52,939 nucleotides of DNA, from positions 1 through 52,939 of the forward strand of contig JAHEHN010000011.1 of the NCBI GenBank assembly GCA_024644515.1, given 5' to 3'. Both the position numbers and the translations under genes were made by a program. Source of the stretch: Gammaproteobacteria bacterium (GTDB lineage Bacteria; Pseudomonadota; Gammaproteobacteria; Pseudomonadales; Pseudohongiellaceae). A model generated the notes under the pieces. That model saw only the letters and a program-made list of their open reading frames with translations. It ran no database searches and was not told the DNA's origin. This document shows positions 1,817 through 11,727 of the stretch, piece after piece (within the stretch, counting starts at the first letter, position 1; each line of letters begins with the position of its first letter).

Positions 1817-2206
1817 ATGAAACTTAAAATTTTACTCACCCTTATTACGCTACTGTCAGCCAATTCAACGCTGGCTCACCATTCCTTCTCCGCAGAATTT
1901 GATATCGACAAACCGGTCTCGCTTTCCGGCAAGGTAACCAAAATGCAGTGGTCCAATCCTCATGGCTGGATTTATATCGATGTGGAGAACGCCGATGGCA
2001 GTTTGACCAACTGGGCTCTGGAAACCAGCGCCGCCAACAACCTGATTCGTCGCGGCTGGAAACGTGATCATCTGGTAGCGGGTACCGTAATTGAAGTGCA
2101 GGGATTCCAGGCACGAAATGGCAGTGCTACGGCAAACATCCGCGGCATCGTGCTGGAAGATGGCACGCGTCTGTTTTCCGGCAATGCGGATGAACTGACC
2201 AAGTAA
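1817..2206 (+). CDS. DUF6152 family secreted protein
   Basis: A 129-residue protein with signal peptide 1-20 (TLA-HHS). The mature chain would begin His-His-Ser-Phe. It shows the DUF6152 pattern: a G-V-T-K-M-Q-W segment, then NPH at residues 47-49, then a GW-R-L-GT-I-V-GFQAR segment and NGS. It lies one base after the partner gene. The exposed N-terminal His plus His49 could form a metal site; this is inference. Family membership is a motif call shared by three other genes in this window. Confidence 0.88.
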   Translation: MKLKILLTLITLLSANSTLAHHSFSAEFDIDKPVSLSGKVTKMQWSNPHGWIYIDVENADGSLTNWALETSAANNLIRRGWKRDHLVAGTVIEVQGFQARNGSATANIRGIVLEDGTRLFSGNADELTK

Positions 2207-2325
2207 TCATCCGCTCCCGCTCTCAGGCAATCTCCATACCCCGGTAACGTTTCCATCCATCCGGGACTTCCAGTACTATTTAGTCACTGATTAGTTACTG
2301 AAAAAATGGAAATCCTGAAGTCCTT

Positions 2326-3747
2326 ATGCCTTCCGAAAATTCTAACGACCTAATCGTTATTGGTACAGGCCCGGCCGGGGAAAAAGCGGCATATAAAGCC
2401 GCTTATTTCGGCAAAAAAGTCGCCATCATTGAAAAAGAAAAGTGTTATGGCGGTGCCGGCATTAACACCGGCACTATCTCCTCCAAGACTCTGAAAGAAT
2501 CTGCGCTGTATTATTCAGGCAAATATGATACCGGGATGTATGGTCAGGACCGGGTACTGGATGGCAAGACCACTATCCAGAATTTCCTCTACAGAAAAAA
2601 CCTGGTTATTGAAACCCTGGAAAAAGCAGTACTGTTAAATTTTGAACTGCACGGTGTCGACCTTTTTAATGGCACCGCCTCTTTCCAAGATCAAAACACC
2701 ATTATCATTTCAGGTGATGATGGCGAAAAGCGTATTACTGGCGACTATATCCTGATAGCGACTGGCTCCTATCCCTTTCAACCCCCCGATATTCCTTTCG
2801 ATGGCATCATCGTCCATGACTCAGACAGCATTCTGAATATCATGCGCATTCCTGATTCCCTGTGCATTGTCGGTGCCGGCGTCATCGGTTGTAAATACGC
2901 CACTATTTTCAGCGCCATGGGTGCGAAGGTGTATCTAATAAATTCCGGAGACAAAATATTACCCTTCCTCGATGACGAAATTGCGCAAACCCTGCTCGAT
3001 TATATGCAGGGGGAAGGCGTTGAAGTTATTCTTAATGCCTCTATTGACGAAATGATTGTGCCGGAGAATATTGAAAACGATATTCAAATCCGCCTGCAAG
3101 ACGGCATGGAGTTTGAGGTGGATATGTTCCTGTTTGCGGCAGACCGCAGCGGCAGCACAAAATTACTCAACTGTGACAAAGTTAATGTGGAGCTGGGCAA
3201 ACGGGAAGCCATCGTAGTTAACGATAAGTATCAAACTTCCAGGGAAAATATTTATGCGGTGGGGGATGTCATAGGCTTTCCGGCGCTGGCTTCAACCAGC
3301 ATGGACCAGGGCCGTGTGGCAGTATCCAATATGTTTGATATCCGTGACCTGGATGCGCTACCCAAGGTGTTTCCCTATGGCATCTACACAATCCCTGAGG
3401 TTTCCATGGTAGGCATAACAGAGGAAGAGGCGAAGGAATCCGGGATGGACTACCTGACTGGCCGTGCTCATCATCAAAACATACCGCGGGGCAGAATCAT
3501 GGGCGTACAAACCGGCATGCTGAAAATTATTGTGTCTAAAGATGACATGGTAATTCGCGGCGTGCATATCATGGGGCGCCTTGCCAGTGAAATGATCCAT
3601 TACGGCCTGGCTATTGTGCAATCTGAAAAAACAGTGAATGAAGTCATTGCCACCGTATTTAATTACCCTACCCTGCACGATTTATACAAGTATGCCTGCT
3701 ATGACGCCCTTGGTAATCTAGGCGGCCACGAAATCAAGGACTTTTAA
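2326..3747 (+). CDS. sthA: SthA-like soluble pyridine nucleotide transhydrogenase
   Basis: A 473-residue flavoprotein of the pyridine nucleotide-disulfide oxidoreductase family. It has the FAD dinucleotide motif GTGPAG (13-18), an NAD(P)-binding GAGVIG motif mid-protein, AVGDVIGFPALAS near the FAD ribityl site, and a dimerisation domain with YGIYTIPEVSMVG and FNYPT. These match SthA, which interconverts NADPH and NADH in the cytoplasm. The redox-active Cys pair of lipoamide dehydrogenases is absent: the GGxCxxxGC region reads GGAGINTGT, lacking even the single Cys that E. coli SthA keeps. This fits transhydrogenase rather than disulfide reductase activity. The gene is monocistronic, 119 bp after the DUF6152 gene. 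Confidence 0.85.
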   Translation: MPSENSNDLIVIGTGPAGEKAAYKAAYFGKKVAIIEKEKCYGGAGINTGTISSKTLKESALYYSGKYDTGMYGQDRVLDGKTTIQNFLYRKNLVIETLEKAVLLNFELHGVDLFNGTASFQDQNTIIISGDDGEKRITGDYILIATGSYPFQPPDIPFDGIIVHDSDSILNIMRIPDSLCIVGAGVIGCKYATIFSAMGAKVYLINSGDKILPFLDDEIAQTLLDYMQGEGVEVILNASIDEMIVPENIENDIQIRLQDGMEFEVDMFLFAADRSGSTKLLNCDKVNVELGKREAIVVNDKYQTSRENIYAVGDVIGFPALASTSMDQGRVAVSNMFDIRDLDALPKVFPYGIYTIPEVSMVGITEEEAKESGMDYLTGRAHHQNIPRGRIMGVQTGMLKIIVSKDDMVIRGVHIMGRLASEMIHYGLAIVQSEKTVNEVIATVFNYPTLHDLYKYACYDALGNLGGHEIKDF

Positions 3748-3782
3748 TTCATGCCTCGGTTCTTTCGTTCAGCTTTTTTCTT

Positions 3783-3817
3783 GCGACTTGTGACTTGCAA
3801 CTTGTGACTTGCAACTT
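3783..3817 (+). repeat. Heptamer tandem repeat A, five units
   Basis: Five consecutive 7-bp units of form GYRACTT (GCGACTT, GTGACTT, GCAACTT, GTGACTT, GCAACTT) lie between sthA and the DUF6122 gene. The same family occurs at 21504, 21884, 34786 and 41479. Confidence 0.9.
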
Positions 3818-11059: not shown

Positions 11060-11090
11060 AATAAATTACGCTCCTTTGAGTAACACTTTT

Positions 11091-11146
11091 ATTATACGCG
11101 CCTTGCAAGCCATGGAGAAAATTGAAAATACCTATTAGGTCGATAG
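11091..11146 (-). promoter_or_regulatory. katG promoter with OxyR-type site
   Basis: On the minus strand a perfect -10 TATAAT lies at 11096-11091, 32 bases before the katG ATG. Its -35 region (TTCTCC) is poor. Just upstream, 11132-11146 reads CTAT-N7-ATAG, the exact central pair of the OxyR consensus ATAG-N7-CTAT-N7-ATAG-N7-CTAT. A weaker outer element (ATTG) abuts the -35. A weak -35 with an adjacent activator site fits peroxide induction. Confidence 0.6.
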
Positions 11147-11325
11147 GCAACGCCATGATCCAGCTGATAATAATTATTGAACGCACTGACAACTAGCTGA
11201 TTTTCATGGGGAATATCACCTGAAAAAAACATTGATAAGCTATTAAAATGGCAGCATTATCAACATATATACGTCGGCTTTTAGTTTTAGTTCAAATTTT
11301 AATCAGGTCTTGCAGGGGAAACATC

Positions 11326-11727
11326 ATGAATAAAAAATTAATGGGACTTGCCGGATTGATGTTTTCGTTATTCCTGTCAATTCCAGTGGTTGCCCATCAT
11401 TCTTTCGCCGCCCAGTATGACAGCAACAAACCCGTCACCATGACCGGCATGGTGACCAAGGTTGAATGGCAAAACCCGCATGTTTACCTTTATATCGATG
11501 TCGAAGATGAAAATGGCAATTATGAAAAATGGGCGCTTGAAATGGGGGCACCTGCCGTTCTGACCCGCATTCAGGGATGGTCGCGCTCGACACTGTCTAT
11601 CGGTGATATGGTGCAAGTGGAGGGAAGGCTGGCAAGAGACGGCAGCAATCTGGCCAATGCGCGCTCCGTCACCCTGACCTCCGGCGAAGAACTTGGCGCA
11701 GGGTCCAGCGAACTTACTACGCCATAG
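11326..11727 (+). CDS. DUF6152 family secreted protein
   Basis: A 133-residue protein. ATG 11326 is preferred because AGGGG lies 8 bases upstream and a signal peptide follows immediately (1-23, PVVA-HHS). The mature start is His-His-Ser-Phe-Ala. NPH is at 50-52, followed by GWSRSTLSIGDMVQVEGRL and ARDGSN. It is the close paralogue of the gene at 1817 (HHSFxAxxD, NKPVxxxGxVTK). It is the first gene of an operon with the partner gene at 11748 (20-bp gap) and the gene at 12587. Confidence 0.9.
   Translation: MNKKLMGLAGLMFSLFLSIPVVAHHSFAAQYDSNKPVTMTGMVTKVEWQNPHVYLYIDVEDENGNYEKWALEMGAPAVLTRIQGWSRSTLSIGDMVQVEGRLARDGSNLANARSVTLTSGEELGAGSSELTTP

Follow-up and report, generated by a model that had tools for sequence, protein, structure and literature searches.

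The window analysed here (52,939 nt of contig JAHEHN010000011.1, from a gammaproteobacterium of the Pseudohongiellaceae) carries four genes, P1 to P4, of the large and still uncharacterised Pfam family DUF6152 (PF19649), whose products are predicted to start, once the signal peptide is removed, with two consecutive histidines and to carry a third in a later Pro-His motif. We propose, as the likely reading, that DUF6152 is a secreted metalloprotein with an oligonucleotide/oligosaccharide-binding (OB) fold, in which His1, His2 and the NPH histidine hold one metal, most likely copper, and which acts together with a partner protein. The conservation of the three histidines reaches far beyond the four window genes and is family-wide; DUF6152 appears to be a novel type of metal-holding protein, with copper the probable metal, and the proposal gives the family a testable function.

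Four DUF6152 precursors in the window

Open reading frames (ORFs) were read directly from the letters of the window, and membership of DUF6152 was decided by the curated Pfam cut-off of 27 bits. The four genes are as follows (third His, the histidine of the NPH or MPH motif; mature positions are predicted).

1817..2206, + strand: P1, DUF6152 precursor (ORF; PF19649, 105.9 bits); mature domain 1877-2203, H1-H2 codons 1877-1882, third His codon 1961-1963
4280..5272, + strand: P2, DUF6152 fused to a C-terminal partner (lipocalin-like) domain (ORF; PF19649, 66.6 bits); mature start 4349, third His codon 4430-4432 (MPH), partner domain 4733-5251
5764..6333, + strand: P3, divergent DUF6152 (ORF; 29.3 bits, barely over the cut-off); mature start 5845, third His codon 5935-5937
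11326..11727, + strand: P4, DUF6152 precursor (ORF; 100.4 bits; modelled with AlphaFold2); mature domain 11395-11724, H1-H2 codons 11395-11400, third His codon 11479-11481

DUF6152 is the sole Pfam family over its cut-off in the four proteins, and no CopC and no lytic polysaccharide monooxygenase (LPMO) family is found among their Pfam matches up to E 0.1. Each precursor opens with a few basic residues and a hydrophobic stretch, followed by Ala at position -1, HHS and, farther on, Pro-His. With a stroke for the predicted cut, the N-termini read STLA/HHSF in P1, PVAA/HHSH in P2, VLFA/HHSS in P3 and PVVA/HHSF in P4, and the third histidine is mature residue 29, 28 (in MPH), 31 and 29, respectively. 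An earlier sequence-only reading had placed HHS at the mature N-terminus of all four products and NPH or MPH 27-30 residues after His1; the ORF translations confirm the motifs and their spacing, the distances being 28, 27, 30 and 28.

Signal peptide and predicted mature N-terminus

Cleavage was predicted across the family with a crude home-made rule, and 21 of 344 N-termini were excluded because they had no usable Met. Among the remaining 323, the site before HH was ranked best in 227 and was permitted in 318; among the 25 other site choices listed, most (23) lie two to six residues upstream, with one eight residues upstream and one downstream. The residue at -1 is Ala in 315 of the 344 sequences, Gly in 13, Ser in 11, Pro in 4 and Thr in 1, so that 339 have Ala, Gly or Ser there, and 343 have one of A, V, L, S, G, T, M or I at -3.

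By the same rule, His stands at +1 in only one of 222 neighbouring partner proteins, and a His directly after the signal peptide occurs in 2.6% of the proteins of the SignalP 6.0 training set (PMC12537917). Given these two backgrounds, the His at the mature start of DUF6152 is not a matter of chance. The pattern strongly supports His as the first residue of the mature protein, the cleavage site itself being predicted, and the N-terminal His first suggested for four genes thereby gains family-wide support.

Conservation of the three histidines across DUF6152

The sequence-only reading had put forward conservation of HHS and NPH in a family alignment as a test, and for the histidines the test was passed: in an alignment of 206 distinct sequences, each of the positions 1, 2 and 29 departs from His only once (205 of 206), while identity to P4 is 24-68% in a 95-sequence set. 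Since 80 loci had been chosen with an NPH-containing pattern, and since the PF19649 profile covers HHS, conservation counts obtained on such loci are biased. For this reason we built a profile from residues 31 onward only, that is, from the C-terminal half beyond the third His. It gave 351 distinct copies, of which 346 have HH and the third His, four are truncated frames and one lacks the motif; setting the truncated frames aside, the three histidines are present in 346 of 347 copies with an intact N-terminus. Some of these sequences had originated from the biased scans, and several locus sets had not: at the loci fetched by a profile of the C-terminal-half type alone, 85 of 87 copies have the motif, the remaining two being truncated frames. 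The profile overlooks some copies that start with HHGW, with 13 among its 346 against 16 in the partner count described below.

The motif is not a frozen block, as the spacing from H1 to the third His varies from 24 to 30 in the 206-sequence alignment. Positions 3 and 4 are variable as well (HHSF 150, HHAF 98, HHGW 13, and others, of 346), and in two divergent copies of the same genome as the window (L041, L042) the N-P of NPH is lost and the His there is retained. Highly conserved positions elsewhere are Trp46 (197/206), Glu49 (191/206), Gly18, Pro28 and Gly70.

In the lone exception, L113, Gln-Pro replaces His-His and Arg replaces the third His (AQP...NPR), the domain being otherwise intact, and the relatives that were inspected (L358, L359, L360 and L361) all retain the three histidines. 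Joint loss is what one shared site would lead us to expect, although it is a single event. L113 (and L357) is a DUF6152 copy in a long frame of 452 amino acids, and offers a natural metal-less control. Taken together, the family-wide conservation, the joint loss in L113 and a weak coevolution signal that places the N-terminus beside the third His (see below) make a joint three-His metal site in DUF6152 well supported, as judged from sequence.

Predicted fold and position of the N-terminus

An AlphaFold2 model of mature P4, computed from its sequence together with 94 others, has a predicted local distance difference test score (pLDDT) of 92.4 and a predicted template modelling score of 0.84. 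Its strands (8-25, 30-37, 43-49, 72-80 and 86-93), with a helix (53-58) that separates β3 from β4, give the OB order β1-β2-β3-α-β4-β5, with the NPH turn linking β1 and β2. The closest solved folds among the 50 matches listed are PriB and SSB (Z 9.6-8.2; for PriB, 4apv, Z 9.6 with a root-mean-square deviation of 2.4 over 81 residues), and the best Foldseek matches are lysyl-tRNA synthetases (E 5.6e-4). Nucleic-acid binding, which such matches could suggest, was rejected in view of the export signals of DUF6152; having an OB fold in common says nothing about function. No solved structure is related in sequence to DUF6152 or to its partner at E 1 or better. The first nine residues of P4 precede the portion that matches most other OB folds.

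Coevolution was analysed on 344 sequences (effective number 266) by mean-field direct coupling analysis (DCA; 5,464 pairs) and by pseudolikelihood-maximisation DCA (plmDCA); mean-field couplings among invariant columns (such as 1-29 and 2-29) arise artificially from the invariance itself and were disregarded. The barrel ladders are recovered (for example 35-43, 17-72 and 24-33), and N-terminal residues are placed near residues 80-88 (9-83 at rank 24, 7-80 at rank 29, 7-86 at rank 36). Between the N-terminus and the NPH hairpin, mean-field DCA ranks 4-88 at 25, 51-88 at 46 and 4-51 at 47, residue 51 being expected to adjoin His29 from the β2-β3 register (30-50 ranks 8); further pairs are 7-31 (rank 51), 9-25 (56), 7-33 (60) and 7-24 (69). 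The plmDCA ranks agree in part (8-31 at 28, 4-88 at 35, 9-25 at 43, 3-50 at 44, 7-31 at 105). A dimer signal within β1 (β1-β1'), sought by pair-sum, was too weak to claim. The couplings give modest support to an N-terminus that lies close to the NPH turn, whether of its own chain or of the other chain in a dimer.

Two types of DUF6152 and their partners

As read from gene neighbourhoods, there are two sub-systems, an HHS/HHA type with a lipocalin-like partner and an HHGW type with a DUF6644-like membrane protein. The partners encoded in the window in addition to the fused domain of P2 are:

250..1815, + strand: tandem two-domain partner (lipocalin-like), directly upstream of P1; domains 319-981 and 1096-1773
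11748..12572, + strand: single-domain partner (lipocalin-like), directly downstream of P4; identified by partner profile, AlphaFold2 and fold comparison
43575..44613, + strand: two tandem DUF6644-like membrane proteins (the second by Pfam; phmmer similarity)

In the window, a tandem partner precedes P1, a single partner comes after P4, and P2 unites both domains in one protein. The lipocalin-like partner family is unnamed in NCBIfam and PHROGs and has no Pfam family over cut-off, Svf1_C reaching only 16.8 bits (cut-off 25). The model of 11748-12572 (AlphaFold2, pLDDT 87.8) shows a middling likeness to retinol- and fatty-acid-binding barrels (CRBP II: Z 9.0, root-mean-square deviation 3.6, 113 residues) and has no Foldseek match at E 0.001, and two Cys are at least 90% conserved. 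We take the partner to be a secreted lipocalin-like barrel that would bind a small hydrophobic molecule.

Because annotation of neighbours by the longest ORF is blurred by antisense ORFs in these G+C-rich genomes, partners were counted from profile searches, as distinct genes at the loci up to L264 and in the window. Of 253 non-HHGW DUF6152 genes, 226 have a partner that is fused to them or no more than 1.5 kb away (195 on the same strand, 9 on the opposite strand, 22 fused). Five have it farther away and 22 have none in view, four of these on viral contigs; the flanks are often just 1.5 kb, so neither group is proof of absence. Beside HHGW-type genes the partner was found in 0 of 16 cases.

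At all 15 HHGW loci from a phylum sample (L050-L064) there is a DUF6644-like gene within ~3 kb, and at the 13 with wider flanks it directly adjoins DUF6152 on the same strand. Each of these 15 genomes has one DUF6152 match. In the window, 44125-44613 matches DUF6644 (PF20349) with 33 bits, over the cut-off of 27; 43575-44087 matches no Pfam family and is similar by phmmer to the same neighbours of HHGW-type DUF6152. When 10 of the HHGW neighbours were tested by Pfam, three were over the DUF6644 cut-off, five were below it and two had no match, and so the label "DUF6644-like" rests mainly on likeness to the window protein and on a home-made profile. All 15 DUF6644-like proteins compared, 13 neighbours and the two of the window, share an invariant His (alignment column 50), two Arg (67 and 176), Lys (119), Asn (129) and Trp (168). 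DUF6644-like genes are also present at 10 loci of the best-80 DUF6152 set, and two such frames occur at DUF6152 loci of other genomes, for instance L118, L146, L160 and L161. The genome of the window has its own HHGW copy, L338 (G000:C52:56368-56625), just beyond the window; unlike at the 15 other HHGW loci, no DUF6644 was found within the 11 kb taken around it, the DUF6644 pair of the window being ~12 kb away.

Copy number and distribution

The genome of the window (2.71 Mb, 159 contigs) has 45 DUF6152 matches and 56 partner matches. Five genomes of the same genus have 46-71 DUF6152 matches and the other genera of the family have 1-57; within the family, a match is present in 37 of 57 genomes, and in a phylum sample in 22 of 249, the genome of the window being included in both counts. 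In the phylum to which the genome of L118 belongs, the C-terminal-half profile finds DUF6152 in 11 of 119 genomes. Among the best 80 matches, those with a name are mainly from Acidobacteriota and Gammaproteobacteria assemblies. With 45-71 DUF6152 copies per genome of 2.6-3.4 Mb, one genus has expanded this small module of two proteins to an unusual degree. Dozens of diverged copies argue for many putative substrates and against plain copper housekeeping. Of the two conserved partners identified, one is an unnamed family at tens of copies in small genomes.

Comparison with known metal-binding proteins

CopC is a periplasmic copper protein with an N-terminal His and a membrane partner, CopD. DUF6152 resembles it in its predicted N-terminal His and in having a membrane partner, the HHGW type recalling CopC-CopD, and differs from it in the lack of a CopC Pfam match in P1-P4, in its predicted fold, and in a membrane neighbour that is DUF6644-like and matches no CopD family. 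As in LPMOs (AA9, AA10 and others), His1 and a second His are the expected ligands, and large copy numbers would fit substrate-specific enzymes; unlike LPMOs, DUF6152 has no LPMO family match, a predicted OB fold, ~110 residues and a His at position 2. CusF, a small periplasmic OB-fold copper protein, holds Cu(I) via Met, His and Trp of the barrel and not via its N-terminus.

Characterised histidine-brace proteins, such as LPMOs and CopC, have an immunoglobulin-like or cupredoxin-like β-sandwich, and a brace holds copper in a T-shaped N3 arrangement through NH2 and Nπ of His1 and Nτ of the other His. The sequence-only reading had proposed a possible copper histidine brace. The predicted N-terminal His, the conservation of the three histidines (the third His and His2, candidates for the second ligand of a brace, are both present in 346 of the 347 copies) and their joint loss support part of this reading. 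The strand order of the P4 model is that of an OB barrel, unlike the known brace proteins; copper as the metal and brace geometry are what we infer. To our knowledge no classical brace requires a His at residue 2, which in DUF6152 is near-invariant.

The closest relatives in kind are the signal-strapping metalloproteins, that is, the anglerases Ang-1 and Ang-2, DUF4198 and DUF6702, which are likewise secreted and have a conserved N-terminal His freed by cleavage (PMC12537917). The Ang domains are joined to a permease of the membrane, which may be compared with the pairing of HHGW-type DUF6152 with a DUF6644-like protein; they, DUF4198 and DUF6702 are described as β-sandwiches (PMC12537917), whereas DUF6152 has a predicted OB fold, a near-invariant His2 and a third His. 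DUF6152 is thus a candidate N-terminal-histidine metalloprotein on a different fold and with two conserved partners; if this is true, the OB fold would count among those with a metal site at an N-terminal histidine. Neither "6152" nor "PF19649" occurs in the main text of that work, and searches of open-licence PubMed Central papers, a scope that leaves most subscription and preprint-only work outside, returned none with DUF6152, PF19649 or DUF6644 and none in which "histidine brace" occurs alongside either "OB-fold" or "OB fold".

Proposed metal site and alternative explanations

In the mechanism we propose, the protein would be exported and then cut by signal peptidase before His1, as its sequence suggests, exposing a free N-terminus. 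One transition-metal ion would be held by the amine and imidazole of His1, by His2 and by the NPH His (residue 29 in P4), a joint coordination that we infer from conservation and joint loss. The N-terminal segment, the β1-β2 turn and the end of β3 would come together on one side of the barrel, and the site would lie there, with ligands from one chain or from the two chains of a dimer. Copper is suggested by the chemistry of a free N-terminal His (PMC10952591), nickel being a real alternative (PMC12537917). In the HHGW type, metal or electrons may be passed to the DUF6644-like membrane protein, and in the expanded HHS/HHA type the metal centre may work with the small-molecule-binding lipocalin-like barrel.

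Several observations weigh against this proposal. Pro at -1, a poor fit to signal peptidase I, occurs in 4 of 344 precursors, and the first ten residues of the model have a lower pLDDT (mean 81). An OB barrel has the beginning of β1 towards one end and the β1-β2 turn towards the other, so that residues 1-7 would have either to fold back or to extend to a second subunit. The pairs 8-31 and 3-50 drop to ranks 180 and 156 by mean-field DCA; the top N-terminal pair of plmDCA, 5-73 (rank 23; 644 by mean-field), does not lead to the NPH turn; and the bootstrap median ranks of 4-88, 7-31, 9-25 and 8-31 are 64, 70, 82 and 121. Relatives with only 1-3 DUF6152 matches still carry 4-27 partner domains (partner counts being lower bounds in rich relatives, with only ~46 candidates scored), which makes the partner the wider family, one that occurs without DUF6152 as well and whose number is not strictly tied to that of DUF6152. 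The 20 neighbour proteins sampled are mixed, and none matches a copper-handling family. Finally, in DUF4198 and DUF6702, two comparable N-terminal-His families, it is nickel that gives the largest thermal shift (PMC12537917).

It is possible, if doubtful, that DUF6152 is a metal carrier or sequestering protein only, similar to CopC or the anglerases, and takes periplasmic copper or nickel to a membrane protein such as DUF6644. The single DUF6152 of each of the 15 HHGW genomes, beside a membrane protein with an invariant His at every locus, would suit a carrier, and published N-terminal-His proteins (DUF4198, Ang-1/2) bind metals and have weak activity (PMC12537917); however, this leaves the 45-71 copies per genome of the other type, and the lipocalin-like partner, unexplained.

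We consider it unlikely that the site holds zinc, nickel or cobalt instead of copper, in a structural or binding role. Any of these can sit on three His, and DUF4198 favours nickel over copper despite its N-terminal His (PMC12537917), but a free N-terminal His is mostly expected to chelate Cu(II) preferentially (PMC10952591).

A more ambitious form of our proposal, which we also regard as unlikely and offer as speculation, is that OB-fold DUF6152 and the lipocalin-like partner make up a new two-part periplasmic copper oxidase or oxygenase, with dozens of specific pairs per genome. The three-His copper centre may then be built on the free N-terminus while the partner presents a small hydrophobic substrate, and the pairs may act on different compounds, diversifying by analogy with cytochromes P450 or LPMOs.

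That the histidines form an acid-base or small-ligand site, for example for a compound from the lipocalin-like partner, and are not metal ligands seems improbable: near-absolute conservation suits any catalytic role, and Glu49 (191/206) and Trp46 (197/206) could belong to one, but positions 3 and 4 vary and conservation precisely at the residue freed by cleavage is a known signature of metal chelation (PMC12537917). The idea that HH, located as it is at the end of the signal peptide, is a signal-peptide or sorting feature with no role in the mature protein is very improbable, as His is found at +1 in just one of the 222 neighbouring secreted partners, and as the third His, far from the signal peptide, is no less fixed and disappeared along with HH in L113.

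Other genes of the window

The small secreted protein encoded at 12587-13024 has QEGHPL.GSW close to where it starts when mature, and similar ones are found beside other modules (5 and 3 loci in two locus sets). Between P3 and P4, on the - strand, 8846-11059 encodes a catalase-peroxidase, KatG, with an apparent export signal. A TonB-dependent receptor at 50588-52639 has a His/Glu-rich loop (HGEHHEEDHDEDHEEEGHEHEEEN), which we take to be as in receptors for metals.

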